Assembly (NCBI GenBank): GCA_030654805.1
Contig: JAURWR010000016.1
Location: 1 to 54,717 of the forward strand
From: Burkholderiaceae bacterium
GTDB taxonomy: Bacteria > Pseudomonadota > Gammaproteobacteria > Burkholderiales > Burkholderiaceae_C
Reading direction: 5' to 3'
Length of the DNA: 54,717 nucleotides
The notes under the pieces: model-generated
Database searches by the model: none
Seen by the model: the letters and a program-made list of their open reading frames with translations, nothing else
Told to the model about the DNA's origin: nothing
In this document: one piece after another, positions 2,540 through 47,297 of the stretch
Layout: each line of letters starts with the position of its first letter
How positions within the stretch are numbered: the first letter of the stretch is position 1
Made by a program: the position numbers and the translations under genes

Positions 2540-3036
2540 TGTTTTTCTCCTTCAGGGGCCCGAGCAGCCGGAGCGCCTTCCGACGCCTTGTTGAACAGAA
2601 ACTGACTGATCAGATTCTCCAACACGACGGCCGACTGGGTTTGCGTGATGACATCCCCCGCTGCCAGATTCTTCTCGTTGCCGCCGGGTTCGATCCCGAC
2701 ATATTGCTCGCCGAGCAGTCCCGAAGTCAGGATCTTGGCCGAGCTGTCTTTCGGAAACTGGAACTTCTGCTGCAACTGGAGAGCGACGCTGGCCTGAAAA
2801 GTCTTGTCGTCGAAGCTGATCGAATCGACGCGACCGACCACGACACCGGCACTCTTCACTGCCGCTCGCGGCTTCAGTCCCCCGATGTTGTCGAAGCGTG
2901 CGACGACGCCGTAAGTGGCGTCGAAATTGAGGCTCAGCAGGTTGCCCGCCTTCAGCGCCAAAAACAGCAGAGCGGCGGCGCCGATCATCACGAACAGCCC
3001 CACCCACACTTCATGACGGGATTTTTGCAACGTCAT
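2536..3036 (-). CDS. mlaD: MlaD, MCE-domain subunit of the Mla phospholipid transporter
   Basis: A 166-residue inner-membrane-anchored MCE protein. MlaD forms a hexameric ring that holds lipid between MlaE and MlaC. One N-terminal transmembrane helix (VGLFVMIGAAALLFLALKAG, about residues 12-31) is followed by a single MCE domain: YGVVARFDNIGGLKPRAAVK, then VGRVDSISFDD, and SGLLGEQYVGIEPGG. The last is the hallmark loop of the family. It lies 25 bases after mlaE and is coupled by a four-base overlap to mlaA. Confidence 0.95.
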   Translation of the reverse strand: MTLQKSRHEVWVGLFVMIGAAALLFLALKAGNLLSLNFDATYGVVARFDNIGGLKPRAAVKSAGVVVGRVDSISFDDKTFQASVALQLQQKFQFPKDSSAKILTSGLLGEQYVGIEPGGNEKNLAAGDVITQTQSAVVLENLISQFLFNKASEGAPAARAPEGEKQ

Positions 3037-3061
3037 TCCCCTTGTCGACCGCTGCGGGTCA

Positions 3062-3844
3062 TTAGATCGAAAACATCATGGCGGTCAGCACGAAGTCGAG
3101 CGCCAGCACGGCCAGCGACGACGTCACCACCGTGCGTGTCGTGGCCCGCGAAACCCCTTCGGGCGTGGGCTTGCAGTCGTAGCCCTCCCACAGCGCGACG
3201 AAGGTCACCGTCACGCCGAACACCACGCTCTTGATGGCGCCGTTGCCCACGTCGGACCACCAGCTGACACCGCCCTGCATTTGAGACCAGAACGAGCCCT
3301 CGTCGATGCCCAGCAGCGGAACGGCGACCAACCAGCCGCCCAGCACACCCACCGCGCTGAACACCGCCGCGAGCAGCGGCATCGAAATCAGGCCTGCGAG
3401 GAAGCGAGGGGCCAGCACGCGCCGCACCGGGTCAACCGCCATCATCTCCATCGCGGATAGTTGTTCACCGGCCTTCATCAAGCCGATTTCGGCTGTCAGG
3501 GACGTTCCGGCACGGCCCGCGAACAACAGCGCGGTGACCACAGGCCCCAGTTCGCGCACCAGCGACAACGCCACCAGCAGGCCGACCGCTTCGGCCGAGC
3601 CGTACCGCTGAAGGGTGTAGTAGCCCTGCAAGGCCAGCACGAAACCGACGAACAGGCCCGACACGCCGATGATGGACAGCGAGCGGTTGCCGACAAAAAA
3701 TGTCTGTTCGATCACCAGGGTGAACCGACGCAAAGCCAGCGGTGTCAGGGCCACCAACCGGACAAACAAAAGCGCCGCAGCACCGATGCCAGCCATCTGC
3801 GCCAGCACCGTGCGGCCGACCCAGGCCGGGTTGAACCAGTTCAT
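3062..3844 (-). CDS. mlaE: MlaE, permease subunit of the Mla phospholipid transporter
   Basis: A 260-residue integral membrane permease of the MlaE/YrbE family. It dimerises at the base of the MlaD ring and couples ATP hydrolysis by MlaF to lipid movement. It shows about five hydrophobic segments and the family signatures ELGPVVTALLFAGRAGTSLTAEIG (about residues 114-137) and MMAVDPVRRVLAPRFLAGLI. Length is usual for the family. Its start overlaps the mlaF stop by four bases. Confidence 0.95.
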   Translation of the reverse strand: MNWFNPAWVGRTVLAQMAGIGAAALLFVRLVALTPLALRRFTLVIEQTFFVGNRSLSIIGVSGLFVGFVLALQGYYTLQRYGSAEAVGLLVALSLVRELGPVVTALLFAGRAGTSLTAEIGLMKAGEQLSAMEMMAVDPVRRVLAPRFLAGLISMPLLAAVFSAVGVLGGWLVAVPLLGIDEGSFWSQMQGGVSWWSDVGNGAIKSVVFGVTVTFVALWEGYDCKPTPEGVSRATTRTVVTSSLAVLALDFVLTAMMFSI

Positions 3845-4677
3845 GCCCGACCTCCGACGCCGAAATCCTCGGTCACCGAGGCGGCGGGGTAATGGAATTC
3901 CACCGGTCCATCCGGCGAGGCCGTGAAGAACTGATGCACCAGCGGATCGGTGCTGGCCCGAATCTCATCCGGCGTGCCCTGGGCGGCGATGACGCCGTTG
4001 GCCACAAACACGATGTGATGGGCGATGGCGAAGGTTTCCTCGACATCGTGCGAGACGACCACGCTGGTCACGCCCAGCGCCTGGCTCAGATCGCGGATCA
4101 GACGCGAAGCGCTGCCGAGCGAGATCGGGTCGAGGCCGGCAAAGGGCTCGTCATACATGATCAAGTCGGGGTCGAGCGCGATGGCCCGGGCCAGCGCCAC
4201 ACGCCGCGCCATGCCACCCGACACTTCGGAAGGCATCAGGTTGCGCGCGCCGCGAAGACCCACCGCATCGAGCTTCATCAGCACCACGTCACGGATCATC
4301 GACGGACTCAGGTTGGTGTGCTCGCGCAGCGGAAACGCCACGTTGTCGAACACCGACAGGTCGGTGAACAGCGCGCCGAACTGGAACAGCATGCCCATGC
4401 GTCGGCGCAAGGCATACAGCCCCTGCCGATCGAGCTGGGCGAGATCGATCCCGTCGAAGAAAACCTGCCCACTCATCGGCACCAATTGGCGACCGATCAA
4501 CCGCAGCAAGGTCGTCTTGCCACCGCCAGACGTTCCCATCACACCGATCACCTTGCCGCGCGGCAGATCGATGTCGATGTTGCTGAGGATGACCCGATCA
4601 CCATACCCGCAGGTCACACCACGCATGGAAACCAGGACGGGTGCAGTGGCGGTAGGGGGATCTGAAAGAGGGGTCAT
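3841..4677 (-). CDS. mlaF: MlaF, ATPase subunit of the Mla phospholipid transporter
   Basis: A 278-residue cytoplasmic ABC ATPase that powers the Mla system. Visible motifs are Walker A GTSGGGKTTLL (about residues 49-59), the signature SGGMARRVALARAIA in the form typical of MlaF rather than other ABC ATPases, Walker B LIMYDEPFAGLDP, and the switch histidine in VVVSHDVEE. It is the first gene of the mlaFEDACB operon. The start at 4677 has only a weak ribosome site; the internal ATG at 4626 is a less likely alternative because it would remove little else. The 130 bases upstream hold two hairpins and a TATCAT box but no gene. Confidence 0.95.
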   Translation of the reverse strand: MTPLSDPPTATAPVLVSMRGVTCGYGDRVILSNIDIDLPRGKVIGVMGTSGGGKTTLLRLIGRQLVPMSGQVFFDGIDLAQLDRQGLYALRRRMGMLFQFGALFTDLSVFDNVAFPLREHTNLSPSMIRDVVLMKLDAVGLRGARNLMPSEVSGGMARRVALARAIALDPDLIMYDEPFAGLDPISLGSASRLIRDLSQALGVTSVVVSHDVEETFAIAHHIVFVANGVIAAQGTPDEIRASTDPLVHQFFTASPDGPVEFHYPAASVTEDFGVGGRA

Positions 4678-43234: not shown

Positions 43235-43322
43235 CGCGGATTCAAAGCCCGCAGGCTCCAGTTGTCTCCTCCACCTCCTCATGGTGGATTCAGCCCAAGG
43301 CATCACTGCCTTGGGCTTTTTT
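43235..43322 (+). ncRNA. Candidate small RNA with anti-Shine-Dalgarno loop
   Basis: About 88 bases between the OsmC-family gene and ilvA have the build of a stand-alone small RNA. A -10-like TACAAT lies upstream. The stretch folds into a 5' hairpin (GCGG/CCGC, 43236-43252), a second hairpin (TCCACC/GGTGGA, 43270-43288) and a strong intrinsic terminator. The second hairpin has the loop UCCUCAU and is preceded by CUCCUCC (43266-43272), complementary to Shine-Dalgarno sequences. No open frame with a ribosome site is found in it. It resembles in design, not proven homology, the anti-SD sRNAs of alphaproteobacteria. It could instead be a leader/attenuator upstream of ilvA, although no leader peptide rich in Ile, Val or Leu is seen. 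Confidence 0.5.
43292..43322 (+). terminator. Strong intrinsic terminator upstream of ilvA
   Basis: AGCCCAAGGC (43292-43301) pairs perfectly over ten bases with GCCTTGGGCT (43308-43317), with a six-base loop and six T after it (43317-43322). It points in the plus direction although no protein gene precedes it on that strand; coq7 ends more than 550 bases upstream with an opposite gene between. It therefore marks the end of another transcript. Confidence 0.9.
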
Positions 43323-43446
43323 ATGCGCCCGACCCATGGCAAGGCGCCTCACCCGGTCGCACCCAGGCTGCCATACAACGGGCATCGTATGATCCGCGCC
43401 CGACGGCCGGGCCGGTCTGCGGAATCACTCGCTCCCGGAGATAGCC

Positions 43447-45069
43447 ATGTCTGGCCGAAATGCATCTGAGGTCCCCACCCGAGCCGCCGCGACCGCGAGG
43501 AGGAGAGCAGCATCCCGGCTGGCGATGAAAAAGAGCGCTGGCCGCACAAAGCCGCTCAGTGTCAGCGATTACCTTCAGAAGATTCTGACCGCGCGGGTCT
43601 ACGACGTCGCCATCGAGACGCCTCTCGAACTGGCTCGCAGCCTGAGCAAACGCATCCAGAACCAAGTCTTCCTCAAGCGCGAAGACTGCCAGCAGGTTTT
43701 CAGTTTCAAGCTGCGCGGCGCCTACAACAAGATGGCGCATCTGTCGCCGGAGCAACTGCAGCGTGGCGTGATCTGTGCGTCCGCCGGCAACCACGCGCAG
43801 GGTGTGGCTCTTGGGGCCAAACGGCTGGGCTGCAAGGCGATGATCGTGATGCCGGTGACCACACCGCGCCTGAAGATCGACGCGGTCAAGTCGCTGGGTG
43901 GATCGGTCGTCCTGCATGGCGAGAGCTACTCCGACGCCTACGCGCACGCACTCGAACTTGAGCAGCTGCATGGCCTGACCTTCGTGCATCCGTTCGACGA
44001 CCCCGATGTGATCGCCGGTCAAGGCACGATCGCCATGGAAATCCTGCGCCAGCACCCTGGCCCGATCGACGCGGTATTCGTGGCGATCGGCGGAGGTGGA
44101 TTGGTTTCCGGGGTGGCTGCGTACATCAAGGCGGTGCGTCCAGAGATCAAGGTGATCGGCGTTCAGATGAACGATTCGGACGCGATGATCCGTTCGGTCC
44201 AGGCGGGCAAGCGCATCACCCTGTCCGACGTGGGACTGTTCTCCGACGGGACGGCCGTGAAGCAGGTCGGCGTCGAAACCTTCCGACTCACCCGAGAGCT
44301 GGTCGACGGGTTCATCACGGTCGACACCGACGCGGTGTGCGCCGCCATCAAGGACGTGTTTCAGGACACCCGCAGCATCCTGGAACCAGCCGGCGCGCTG
44401 GCGGTCGCAGCGGTCAAGCAGTATGTCGACACTCACCAGCTCAAAGGACAGACGCTGGTCGCGATCGCCTGTGGCGCGAACATGAATTTCGACCGGCTGC
44501 GCTTCGTCGCGGAGCGCGCCGATGTGGGTGAAGAGCGCGAAGCGCTCCTGGCTGTGACGATTCCCGAGGAGCGCGGCAGCTTCAAGCGCTTTTGCCAAGT
44601 CATCGGCCCACGCTCGGTGACCGAGTTCAACTACCGCATCTCCGATGCAAGCAAAGCCCATGTATTCGTCGGCCTGGCAACAACACAACGCGGTGAATCG
44701 ACCAGACTTGCCGCCAGCTTCAACCGGCAGGGATTCCAGGCCATCGACCTCACGCATGACGAACTGGCCAAATTGCACCTGCGCCACATGGTCGGCGGTC
44801 GCAGCGAGCTGGCCAGCGACGAGCGGCTCTACCGCTTCGTATTCCCGGAGCGGCCCGGCGCGCTGATGAAATTCCTGTCCAGTCTGCATCCGGGATGGAA
44901 CATCAGCCTCTTCCACTATCGCAATCAGGGGTCAGATTCGGGCCGAATCCTGGTGGGCATGCAGGTGCCGCATCAGGACAAAAAGGCGTTCAGGGAATTT
45001 CTCGGCACACTCGCGTATCCGTGCGTCGACGAAACGGACAATCCGGCGTATCGACTCTTCCTGCGCTGA
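43447..45069 (+). CDS. ilvA: Biosynthetic threonine ammonia-lyase
   Basis: Deaminates threonine to 2-oxobutyrate, the first step toward isoleucine, with PLP in the cytoplasm. In this family the enzyme is inhibited by isoleucine and relieved by valine through its C-terminal regulatory domain. The 540 residues carry the PLP lysine Lys88 in FSFKLRGAYNKM, ASAGNHAQGVALGA, and the phosphate-binding loop IGGGGLVSG. Two ACT-like regulatory repeats follow (about residues 360-540), marking the long biosynthetic form. The N-terminus is about 30 residues longer than usual and Ala/Arg-rich; the ATG at 43525 is an alternative, but the first ATG has the better ribosome site (GGAG at 43437). Confidence 0.95.
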   Translation: MSGRNASEVPTRAAATARRRAASRLAMKKSAGRTKPLSVSDYLQKILTARVYDVAIETPLELARSLSKRIQNQVFLKREDCQQVFSFKLRGAYNKMAHLSPEQLQRGVICASAGNHAQGVALGAKRLGCKAMIVMPVTTPRLKIDAVKSLGGSVVLHGESYSDAYAHALELEQLHGLTFVHPFDDPDVIAGQGTIAMEILRQHPGPIDAVFVAIGGGGLVSGVAAYIKAVRPEIKVIGVQMNDSDAMIRSVQAGKRITLSDVGLFSDGTAVKQVGVETFRLTRELVDGFITVDTDAVCAAIKDVFQDTRSILEPAGALAVAAVKQYVDTHQLKGQTLVAIACGANMNFDRLRFVAERADVGEEREALLAVTIPEERGSFKRFCQVIGPRSVTEFNYRISDASKAHVFVGLATTQRGESTRLAASFNRQGFQAIDLTHDELAKLHLRHMVGGRSELASDERLYRFVFPERPGALMKFLSSLHPGWNISLFHYRNQGSDSGRILVGMQVPHQDKKAFREFLGTLAYPCVDETDNPAYRLFLR

Positions 45070-45130: not shown

Positions 45131-46204
45131 ATGTCCAGCTACCACAACCTGATTTCTCCGACGGGCAATGCGCATCTCGAAGTGGCGTTGCGCGAAAAGC
45201 TTCTGCGCCGCAGCCAGACCACCGGCGAGCTGGGCGAGTTGGAACCTCTGGCTGTGCGTTTGGGGTTGATCCAGAGAACGTTGAAGCCGCGTTTCCATGC
45301 ACCGCAGATCGTGGTCTTCGCAGCCGATCACGGCATCGCTGTGGACGGCGTGGGGTCAGAGGATCGACAGTCGACGTCGGAACTGGTGCAGGCGCTGCTG
45401 ACGTCGCGGCTACCGCTGTCTGTCTTCGCGCGAATCCAGGGACTCGAACTGTCAGTGGTCGATGCGGGAGTGGCCGAGCCGGTGAGCCCGCACCCCCGGC
45501 TGCTGGCCCGCAAGATCGCTCACGGAACACGCAACTCGCGTGTCACGTCGGCGATGTCACTCGAACAAGCACATGCCGGCATACGTGCGGGCATGGAAAT
45601 CGGCGACACACTGCCGGGCAACGTCGTGGTCTGCGCCGGGGTTGGCGTGGGGTCGGCACAGGCGTCGGCACTGGTGCTGTCGCGCTTGGCGAACGTGGCG
45701 GTGCGCGAGTTCGCGGTGTCGGGACCCAGCATGAAACCCAAGGATCTCGCGAGCATGTTGCTCGTGCTTCAGGGCTCGCAGGGCCGACACAAGGACGTCA
45801 CCGACCCGGTGGAGGTGCTGGCTGCCTTCGGCGGCTTTGAAATCGCGATGATGGTCGGACTGATGATGGTGGCCGCTGGCAAGCGGCACCTGATCGTCGT
45901 CGACGGTCTGGCCGCCTGTGCAGCGCTGGTCATCGGATCGCACATCGCGCCGACGGTGGTCGATTACTGCGTGTTCTCGCGCAGCCACTCGCACCTGGGG
46001 CTGGACCGCGCACTGGCGTTGTTTCAGGCGCGCGCGCTGCTCGAACTCGGCATGGACAGCACCGACGGGACCGGCGCCACGCTGGCCTGGTCGCTGATCC
46101 GCAGTGCCGCAGCGCTGCTGTCAGAGGTCGCCGAAGGTGAAGACGCCGGACCGACCCTGCCTGGCGACATGCCCGACGTGTCGGTGCCCCGACCGCACTA
46201 TTGA
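45131..46204 (+). CDS. Divergent CobT-family phosphoribosyltransferase homolog
   Basis: A 357-residue protein that aligns along its length with nicotinate-nucleotide:dimethylbenzimidazole phosphoribosyltransferase (CobT), which makes the lower-ligand riboside of cobalamin. Shared patterns are VVFAADHGIAVDGV (about 61-74), SVVDAGVAEP, KIAHGTRNS, DPVEVLAAFGGFEIAMMVG (about 225-243) and VVDGLAACAALV. Two motifs differ in a telling way. The GEMGIGNTT motif reads AGVGVGSAQ (169-177), so Glu174 of the Salmonella enzyme is Gly170. RLGEGSGA reads DSTDGTGA, so the catalytic Glu317 is Asp312. The KPxGSLG stretch is also altered. No other cobalamin genes are near. It may act on another base or have lost activity. 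It starts 61 bases after ilvA. Confidence 0.8.
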   Translation: MSSYHNLISPTGNAHLEVALREKLLRRSQTTGELGELEPLAVRLGLIQRTLKPRFHAPQIVVFAADHGIAVDGVGSEDRQSTSELVQALLTSRLPLSVFARIQGLELSVVDAGVAEPVSPHPRLLARKIAHGTRNSRVTSAMSLEQAHAGIRAGMEIGDTLPGNVVVCAGVGVGSAQASALVLSRLANVAVREFAVSGPSMKPKDLASMLLVLQGSQGRHKDVTDPVEVLAAFGGFEIAMMVGLMMVAAGKRHLIVVDGLAACAALVIGSHIAPTVVDYCVFSRSHSHLGLDRALALFQARALLELGMDSTDGTGATLAWSLIRSAAALLSEVAEGEDAGPTLPGDMPDVSVPRPHY

Positions 46205-46216
46205 TCGCCGACACCC

Positions 46217-46759
46217 TCAGCGCATGGTCATTGAGCGAGGCGTCTGGGTCGGCAGGACGACGCCACTCGGCACCGTGACAGAAAGCGCCGGGGGCAATAC
46301 ACCGGTCGCTGCGATGGCAACCAAGGGCAGTTCCAGCACGAAGCTGGTTGCGGGGTCACTGACGTTTTGCGCCGAAGCCACCGTGGCGGTCCGGAGACTG
46401 ACCTCGCGCAGCACCCACTCGCCTTCGATCAGCGCGCCAACGCGATAGACCCGTGCCGGGTTGCCGTCGACGGAAATCACAGCCAGACCCTGTTCGCTCG
46501 GGCGCTTGGGCGCCATGACCCCGGTCAGCCTGAAACGCGCGCTGACGTCAGGTGCCAGCGCTTCGATAACGTCGACAGGCGGGGCAACAGGCGCCGCGCC
46601 GAAAAGTCGGGTCAGGTCCCCCTGACTGGCCATCAGATCGCTTGAGGCAACTGCCGGCGTGGGAGACGGTGCTGCCTGAGCGAACAAGCGCAGGCCCCAG
46701 AACACGAGGCTTCCGGCGACCAAAGCCCAGACGATCAATGCGAACAAGCGGGACGCCAT
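46217..46759 (-). CDS. gspC: Type II secretion protein GspC
   Basis: A 180-residue inner-membrane protein of the type II secretion system that links the inner-membrane platform to the secretin GspD. One transmembrane helix (LFALIVWALVAGSLVFWGLRLF) is followed by the periplasmic HR domain (ASSDLMASQGDLTRLFG, then RFRLTGVMAPKRPSEQGLAVISVDGNPARVYRVGA). No PDZ or coiled coil is seen at the C-terminus. The start at 46759 matches family N-termini and lies six bases after a CATAAT box; the ATG at 46819 would collide with the gspG start. It is divergent from the rest of the cluster. Confidence 0.9.
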   Translation of the reverse strand: MASRLFALIVWALVAGSLVFWGLRLFAQAAPSPTPAVASSDLMASQGDLTRLFGAAPVAPPVDVIEALAPDVSARFRLTGVMAPKRPSEQGLAVISVDGNPARVYRVGALIEGEWVLREVSLRTATVASAQNVSDPATSFVLELPLVAIAATGVLPPALSVTVPSGVVLPTQTPRSMTMR

Positions 46760-46817
46760 GCGCCGATTATGATCTGCCAACATCGCTGCGCGCTCCGGGC
46801 GCGGCCAGGGCTTCTTC
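46760..46817. promoter_or_regulatory. Divergent region between gspC and gspG
   Basis: These 58 bases must carry both promoters if gspC starts at 46759. The core CGATTATGATC gives TATGAT on the plus strand (46768-46773), with transcription near 46780 for gspG. On the minus strand it gives CATAAT (46771-46766), which would start gspC transcription close to its ATG. Neither has a convincing -35. AGGG at 46807-46810 is the probable gspG ribosome site. Confidence 0.35.
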
Positions 46818-47297
46818 ATGTTCACAAACGATTCCGCGCCTGTGTTGCAACCACGTCCAAGCGGGTTGCGGCGGGCACCCAATGCGGCACAGGCCTTGGG
46901 CTTCACGCTGATCGAGTTGATGGTGGTGCTGGTCATCATCGGCGTGCTCGCGGCACTGATCGTTCCCAACGTGCTCAATCGCGCGGACGATGCTCGCGTC
47001 ACGGCCGCACGCACCGACGTCAACAACCTGATGCAGGCACTCAAGCTCTACAAGCTGGACAACCAGCGCTTCCCGAGCGCCGACCAGGGGCTGCAGGCGC
47101 TGGTCGCCAAGCCAACCGTCGGAGCGATCCCACCCAACTGGAAACCCTACCTGGACAAGTTGCCCAACGACCCGTGGGGACATCCATACCAGTACGCCAA
47201 TCCCGGAGTGAAGGGGAACATCGACATCTACAGCCTCGGAGCCGATGGGGTCGTTGGCGGTGAAGGCAACGACGCCGAAGTCGGCTCGTGGCAGTGA
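46818..47297 (+). CDS. gspG: Type II secretion major pseudopilin GspG
   Basis: A 159-residue main subunit of the type II secretion pseudopilus that pushes substrates through the secretin. The leader is longer than usual (28 residues), then the prepilin-peptidase site [23 protein letters not shown] with Glu5. The globular part has the conserved KLDNQRFPSADQGLQALV and DPWGHPYQYANPG, and near the C-terminus the calcium loop with ADGVVGGEGNDAEVGSW. It is the first gene of the plus-strand gsp operon. Confidence 0.97.
   Translation: MFTNDSAPVLQPRPSGLRRAPNAAQALGFTLIELMVVLVIIGVLAALIVPNVLNRADDARVTAARTDVNNLMQALKLYKLDNQRFPSADQGLQALVAKPTVGAIPPNWKPYLDKLPNDPWGHPYQYANPGVKGNIDIYSLGADGVVGGEGNDAEVGSWQ

Follow-up and report, generated by a model that had tools for sequence, protein, structure and literature searches.

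A conserved CobT-fold protein encoded behind ilvA has rewritten active-site positions and is independent of the lower-ligand pathway

The window analysed here, meaning the whole stretch of 54,717 nucleotides from a Burkholderiaceae bacterium, encodes a conserved, selected CobT-fold protein that is independent of the lower-ligand pathway and whose active-site positions have been rewritten. The protein and the clade sharing its signature are labelled TL, and genomes and loci carry the G- and L-numbers of this analysis, G000 being the genome of the window. TL persists in genomes without CobT, CobS, and CobU, and wherever CobS is present a separate CobT match accompanies it. On balance, TL is probably a neofunctionalised protein that left cobamide synthesis for another conserved job, likely as an enzyme with Asp312 as its base, acting on a substrate other than NaMN and benzimidazole and co-expressed with threonine deaminase.

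Residues 14-340 of the product match the Pfam family DBI_PRT (CobT; PF02277) nearly end to end at 264 bits, which bears out the end-to-end CobT alignment claimed in a preliminary description made from the sequence. Both catalytic glutamates are replaced, as was likewise claimed there, with Gly170 at the CobT Glu174 site and Asp312 at the Glu317 site, and the KPxGSLG region is altered, reading RSQTTGELG where CobT has KTKPLGSLG. The coordinates of the features are collected in Table 1. The TL start lies 61 bases beyond the ilvA stop, and 13 bases separate its end from gspC, a convergent frame next to which stands one matching Pfam T2SSG (136.6 bits). An Rfam scan of the window found no cobalamin riboswitch at gathering score. 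A match to Betaproteobacteria_toxic_sRNA (window 43263-43323, + strand, 61 bits) lies just upstream of ilvA; of three other ilvA loci scanned, two (L190 and L214) have the same element near ilvA. The description of the gene as lying away from cobalamin genes holds for the window and fails for the relatives, whose same slot carries cobT and/or cobS.

Table 1. Coordinates of the TL gene, its signature codons, its neighbours, and the odd CobT genes in the ilvA slot of relatives.
Feature	Sequence	Coordinates	Strand	Remarks
TL gene	window	45131..46204	+	Intact open frame from ATG to stop; 357 aa; DBI_PRT fold
Codons 134-137 (HGTRNxR loop)	window	45530..45541	+	Arg134 and Arg137 97-99% in TL; variable in CobT
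Gly170 codon	window	45638..45640	+	CobT Glu174 site (ribose 2'-OH contact in SeCobT, excerpts of PMC9561151)
Met209 codon	window	45755..45757	+	Aligns with E. coli Lys214; Lys in 77/77 canonical rows; TL usually has Leu or Met
Arg284-Ser285 codons	window	45980..45985	+	The same in all 78 TL proteins; canonical rows have His at 284 (77/77)
Asp312 codon	window	46064..46066	+	CobT Glu317 site (general base); Asp across the whole TL clade
ilvA (threonine deaminase)	window	43519..45069	+	Pfam PALP 270.6 bits, Thr_dehydrat_C 158.1 bits; directly upstream of TL, same strand
gspC	window	46217..46909	-	Pfam T2SSC 40.5 bits; convergent to TL; gsp cluster begins here
Odd slot CobT	L089	7914-8933		Two Glu sites H/Q
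Odd slot CobT	L283	1498-2520		Two Glu sites D/Q
Odd slot CobT	L284	1486-2520		Two Glu sites D/Q
Odd slot CobT	L285	1426-2508		Two Glu sites S/E
Odd slot CobT	L223	5277-6353		Two Glu sites D/E

The replacements are shared by a sizeable set of proteins. The 174 distinct relatives, gathered without pre-selection on the two Glu sites, comprise the best 80 of 290 from a scan of genome contigs together with additions from further genome searches. Eighty of them carry the TL pattern, Asp312 with either Gly170 (74) or Ala170 (6), 88 carry Glu/Glu, and six are odd (two D/Q; one each of H/Q, D/E, D/D, and S/E); a count on 178 rows including duplicates gives 98, 78, and 2, respectively. A distinct, conserved clade sharing these substitutions, which the preliminary description would have taken as support for a new function, was thus found, as 80 distinct proteins, the 34 of them placed in the protein tree forming one clade with support of 100/100.

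The changes extend well beyond the two glutamates. Positions common to at least 90% of 77 canonical proteins, 88 in all, were compared with 78 TL proteins, in which 39 are lost, namely the two Glu and 37 others. The losses include Lys27 and Pro30 (KTKP), Pro78, Val81, Glu170, Asn175, Thr176, Gly196, Thr199, Gly200, Lys209, His284, Glu288, His291, and Glu312, and the CobT base-pocket and phosphate-side residues (KTKP, SAYPxxVTxQ, GxGTG, and Lys213) are absent from TL in the same comparison; the E. coli Lys214 position is here taken to be SeCobT Lys213, numbered by offset. Base choice in CobT is set by S80, Q88, and L175, according to the PDB titles of a triple mutant. Common to TL and CobT are Asp66-His67-Gly68, Asp111, Gly172, GGxE (234-237), Asp258-Gly259, Gly313, and Gly315, whereas Arg152, Tyr279, Arg284, Ser285, and Asp312 are gained and invariant in the 78 TL proteins. 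The TL motif CAGVGVGS stands where CobT has GEMGIGNT, and STDGTGA where CobT has RLGEGSGA. The change of Glu317 to Asp is conservative and constant in the clade, so that the acid is better regarded as retained than as lost. The phosphate-binding groups of MjCobT are Thr156, Ser38, and the amides of Gly154 and Gly177, and its Glu150, the counterpart of SeCobT Glu174, touches the ribose 2'-OH (excerpts of PMC9561151). TL is without that Glu and, counting from it, without that Thr, and its Gly174, at the place of Gly154, is nearly invariant. A metal site drawn from an RSHxH motif was considered and is not claimed, the two His occurring in 56/78 and 69/78 TL rows.

Profile scores and predicted structure set TL within the CobT family and apart from the CobT equivalogs. 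Against the NCBIfam TIGR03160 equivalog cut-off of 319.3 bits, the window TL scored 240.2 and four other TL proteins 182.8-239.7, all below it, and the canonical CobT of the same genome scored 425 bits. The best TIGR03160 E-value among the 68 TL sequences of the AlphaFold alignment was 3.5e-76, between those corresponding to 240.2 bits (3.5e-71) and 359.5 bits (1.8e-107). The AlphaFold2 model built on these sequences has a mean pLDDT of 90.3 and a pTM of 0.89, and a Foldseek search with it returned ArsA, ArsB, and bacterial CobTs at query-normalised TM-scores of 0.76-0.83 and archaeal CobTs at 0.48-0.63. All 36 hits at E ≤0.001 belong to the CobT family, the best being ArsA and CobT.

The view, expressed in the preliminary description, that TL is not decaying is upheld by dN/dS values of 0.03-0.18 in 19 TL pairs and, in 11 pairs matched at the same two loci, of 0.03-0.18 for TL against 0.03-0.19 for ilvA; a single matched pair (L195/L196) is looser in TL, at 0.153 against 0.066 for ilvA. 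Slow decay of a redundant gene can be given next to no credence. The odd slot CobTs of relatives (L089, L283-L285, and L223) do look decayed, carrying substitutions that differ from one another, and the first four of them, which are Hydrogenophaga-type, show dN/dS of 0.27-0.31 (four pairs), although the comparison with TL is rough because their dS is higher, at 0.85-1.27. The TL substitutions, by contrast, are uniform, the gene is constrained much as ilvA is, and it has been kept in 92 of the 299 genomes surveyed.

A second, canonical CobT, for which the preliminary description had recommended a search, is present in the genome of the window as its only other CobT, on a contig other than that of TL (G000, C11; 410 bits). 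Its gene immediately precedes cobS and follows cobU and genes for a FecCD-type permease and a TonB receptor (Pfam), and a cobalamin riboswitch (L113 4380-4624, +) lies ahead of this TonB receptor/cobU/FecCD/cobT/cobS cluster. A 6S RNA (L113:3538-3717, -) was also found ahead of the same cluster.

The survey covered 299 genomes of the family that are at least 90% complete, of which 247 match the window protein and 210 have CobS. TL bearers were called from score and identity, and borderline cases by motif (G314 as TL; G129, G220, and G290 as canonical); one survey row, G086, is a contig-edge piece, and G293 has its TL in two pieces. The 92 TL bearers divide into 57 with CobS and 35 without. All 57 with CobS have at least two matches and hence a further CobT match, as taken from match counts and not from the place of each gene. 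Among the 35 without CobS, 32 have a single match and 34 show no other CobT; the extra matches are a piece of the same TL in G293, a fragment with two stops in G326, and, in G100 (6% contamination), the only second match in the canonical range. CobU exceeds its cut-off in G100 and G287 and not in the other 33, and the MetH activation domain is present in 34 of the 35. Since MetH is so nearly universal among these genomes, CobS is absent, and CobU and another CobT are mostly absent, most of them should use cobalamin and seem unable to attach a lower ligand, yet they keep TL.

The co-occurrence of a further CobT with every CobS, together with its absence from 34 of the 35 genomes without CobS, suggests that TL is neither a replacement for CobT nor its partner. 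The idea of TL as a CobT substitute was set aside on the further match in all 57 CobS-bearing TL genomes, read from match counts. The preliminary description had also raised a partner subunit of the ArsA/ArsB type, and ArsA is indeed the best PDB match by both sequence and fold. The comparison does not support the proposal: almost no CobS-less TL genome shows a CobT with which to pair, TL and the canonical CobT lie on different contigs in their own genome, and ArsA and ArsB keep Glu at both sites, which leaves this reading with a scarcely appreciable probability. That TL is an ordinary CobT with tolerated substitutions, making alpha-ribotides perhaps from another base, must be rated most improbable, even though the fold and family match speak for it, an archaeal CobT has an Asp elsewhere as base (excerpts of PMC9561151), and the PDB title of 4kqi, CobT E317A with reaction products, indicates that one lost Glu need not abolish activity. 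Set against these are the 37 conserved positions lost besides the two Glu, the scores under the equivalog cut-off, the further CobT match in every CobS-bearing TL genome, and the occurrence of TL in 35 genomes without CobS.

Two side observations concern CobT genes elsewhere in the family. A non-TL CobT copy in L274 (G026:C27:33251-34279) has D/D at the two Glu sites (GDTGIGNSS, SGDGSGA), and the same genome, G026, also has a Glu/Glu CobT adjoining CobS. In genus g58, three species (L246, L247, and L248) have an empty slot between ilvA and gspC with CobT and CobS elsewhere, and a fourth (L201) keeps TL, with no other CobT and no CobS seen.

The place of the gene is highly regular. ilvA lies upstream of TL in 78 of the 79 distinct loci having at least 1 kb upstream, the exception being L197 (G121), and gsp genes follow TL in 25 of the 26 loci with at least 6.5 kb downstream, the exception being L118. 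TL begins -1 to 196 bases after the ilvA stop (median 55; 78 distinct loci), a spacing short enough to suggest one transcript. At L197:2542-4961, TL stands behind a regulator gene (2542-3891; VpsR and sigma-54 activation domains) and not behind ilvA, its start falling on the last base of the regulator stop codon, a one-base overlap. The genes between TL and gspC in L053, L057, L044, and L194, which by eye are CBS/nucleotidyltransferase-like, exonuclease-like, and TonB-receptor-like, differ among the four loci and were rejected as a hint to function. Within the genus of the window (15 genomes, its own included), G008 and G011 lack TL, though the absence may be only apparent: the ilvA of G011 ends 46 bases from a contig end, and no ilvA match of G008 is better than 5e-6.

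The contents of this slot vary among relatives. It carries cobT-cobS in G143, in G097 (with another gene before cobT), and in G129, G220, and G290 (with no gsp gene within the stretch taken for these three); cobT alone in G228 and L063; and cobS alone in, for example, G024, G032, G030, G018, G034, G017, and G218. It is empty before gspC in, for example, G127, G118, G103, G113, and G259, and holds odd CobTs in G078, L089, G140, G227, and G294. Neither a cob gene nor gsp lies behind ilvA in 20 of 181 ilvA loci (duplicates included), 12 of the 20 having at most 1.5 kb to view. Slot CobTs scored over the TIGR03160 cut-off in L190 (438.8 bits), L214 (424.3), and L223 (359.5), and the odd ones of L283 (280.3) and L089 (261.5) scored under it. 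A TL remnant was sought in the 1.1 kb separating ilvA from cobT in L213 and none was found, the frame there being unrelated and DegV-like by eye. Because the slot of relatives holds cobT-cobS, cobT, cobS, or nothing, TL probably arose by the repurposing of a CobT at this very position.

In the protein tree of 76 selected rows, 34 of them TL (L089 being labelled with the non-slot CobTs, though it lies in the ilvA slot), TL forms one clade with support of 100/100 on a stem of 1.23 changes per column. A position inside the ordinary CobTs, which the preliminary description had named as the contrary outcome, was not found, TL being a single long-stemmed clade among CobTs. It joins a Nevskia CobT and the slot CobTs (91/83), with the remaining CobTs of the family set apart (100/100). 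TL with the slot CobTs alone has support of 67/39, and the alternative that joins TL with the family's other CobTs in one clade is not rejected (p-AU 0.51) and is 0.57 log units better, so descent from a slot CobT rests on synteny. Synteny strongly suggests that TL descends from the cobT behind ilvA in an ilvA-cobT-cobS arrangement, a point that the gene tree by itself does not settle. The ilvA tree, built on 71 rows, shows the clade with the Comamonadaceae rows surrounded by a grade of TL bearers. A tree constrained to keep these bearers together, four nested empty-slot rows included, is 25 log units worse and is not rejected at the 5% level (p-AU 0.08). As the clade holding the Comamonadaceae is nested in TL bearers, TL may predate that split, in which case cobT-cobS may have been regained, or both may have been present at first.

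TL was found in one bacterial family, where the carriers with names include Rubrivivax, Rhizobacter, Ideonella, and Methylibium. The TL loci of the contig scan, among the best 80 of 290 relatives, come from records named for Burkholderiales or its genera, and a few TL MAG records are named only as Betaproteobacteria, Proteobacteria, or Pseudomonadota. In a class sample of 370 genomes, with at most five candidates per genome scored, 9 had a match at ≤1e-60 and no TL-range score was found outside the genome of the window, whose own TL scored 606.7 bits against at most 302.4 bits for other matches. No report of this clade or of a CobT paralogue behind ilvA was found in openly licensed papers.

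As to what TL does, the explanation preferred here is that a CobT behind ilvA moved out of cobamide synthesis into a different, conserved function. Its pocket would have been rebuilt, the base-binding strip, Glu174, the phosphate-side Thr180, Lys213, and the GxGTG loop having gone and Arg134, Arg137, Arg284, Ser285, and the constant Asp312 presumably standing in place of the lost residues. Such a pocket would suit a small anionic ligand, a carboxylate or a phosphate, and the alignment leads us to infer that the new arginines and Asp312 would cluster to form it. Asp312 would be the base in a reaction whose substrate is something other than NaMN and benzimidazole, and TL would be co-expressed with threonine deaminase. 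A NaMN-dependent phosphoribosyltransferase is less likely, because the phosphate-side residues are lost as well.

Judged from sequence features, an enzyme acting on a different substrate is a likelier role for TL than a sensor, although the new invariant residues may serve binding alone. A non-catalytic ligand-binding pseudoenzyme, sensing or regulating without turnover (for instance IlvA, or nucleotide or cobamide status), is to be regarded tentatively, as a possible but less likely reading. Residues for ribose, phosphate, and base are all lost, the gap to ilvA is short in the 78 loci, and in G121 the gene directly overlaps that of a VpsR/sigma-54 regulator, all of which would fit such a role; the constant acid at the base position, on the other hand, is not demanded by a binding-only role, the glycines of the phosphate strip are kept, and the CobT match spans nearly the whole protein, so that no regulatory domain has been added.

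The company of ilvA invites a more specific proposal, in which TL acts in a TrpD-like manner on 2-aminocrotonate or 2-aminoacrylate from IlvA in phosphoribosyl or enamine chemistry. The operon-like link and the acid kept at the general-base site are in its favour, and so is a precedent from E. coli, in which TrpD combines the IlvA product with PRPP to give phosphoribosylamine (excerpts of PMC5348995). The proposal is nonetheless improbable, the CobT phosphate-side residues being lost in TL and a canonical cobT occupying the same slot in relatives, so that the link to ilvA probably predates TL and is weak evidence for enamine chemistry. ilvA and gsp are both conserved neighbours, moreover, and the ilvA link may be history rather than function. 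There is a slim chance that TL would prove to be a new CobT-fold enzyme outside cobamide metabolism, working with IlvA on a compound from threonine/serine deamination, either an anionic product or a reactive enamine, and kept as a standard gene behind ilvA in one family.

To our knowledge, one reaction type is known for the CobT fold, which is here seen leaving cobamide metabolism, and the substrate of TL, if found, would add a new activity to it. Ordinary CobTs, the repurposed TL, and independently altered copies in one chromosomal slot make a natural series for the study of change in enzyme function. In annotation, genomes seemingly incapable of base activation would be credited with it wherever every DBI_PRT hit is counted as cobT, as in 34 of the 35 CobS-less TL genomes.

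Among known systems, CobT (EC 2.4.2.21; PF02277, TIGR03160) resembles TL in its near full-length fold (TM about 0.8), its DHG, GGxE, and DG motifs, and its core glycines. TL differs in the changes of Glu174 to Gly and Glu317 to Asp, in the absence of KTKP, SAYPxxVTxQ, the GxGTG loop, and Lys213, in its score below the equivalog cut-off, and in its occurrence without CobS and CobU. The ArsA/ArsB pair of 4hdk, which we take to be a phenol-activating heterodimer from Sporomusa, includes in ArsA the closest PDB relative by sequence and fold, but both subunits align with Glu at the two sites where TL has Gly and Asp, and TL occurs without any partner CobT. The Methanocaldococcus CobT (6pt8, 6pu6) is of the same fold class and illustrates that the base residue can change (Asp52; excerpts of PMC9561151), but it keeps Glu150, the equivalent of Glu174, along with its cobamide role, and reaches a TM-score of only about 0.6 to TL. 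Last of all, the odd slot CobTs, both Hydrogenophaga-type (L089, L283-L285) and L223, have substitutions that differ between species without a common new signature, unlike TL, with which they share the place behind ilvA and the altered catalytic residues.
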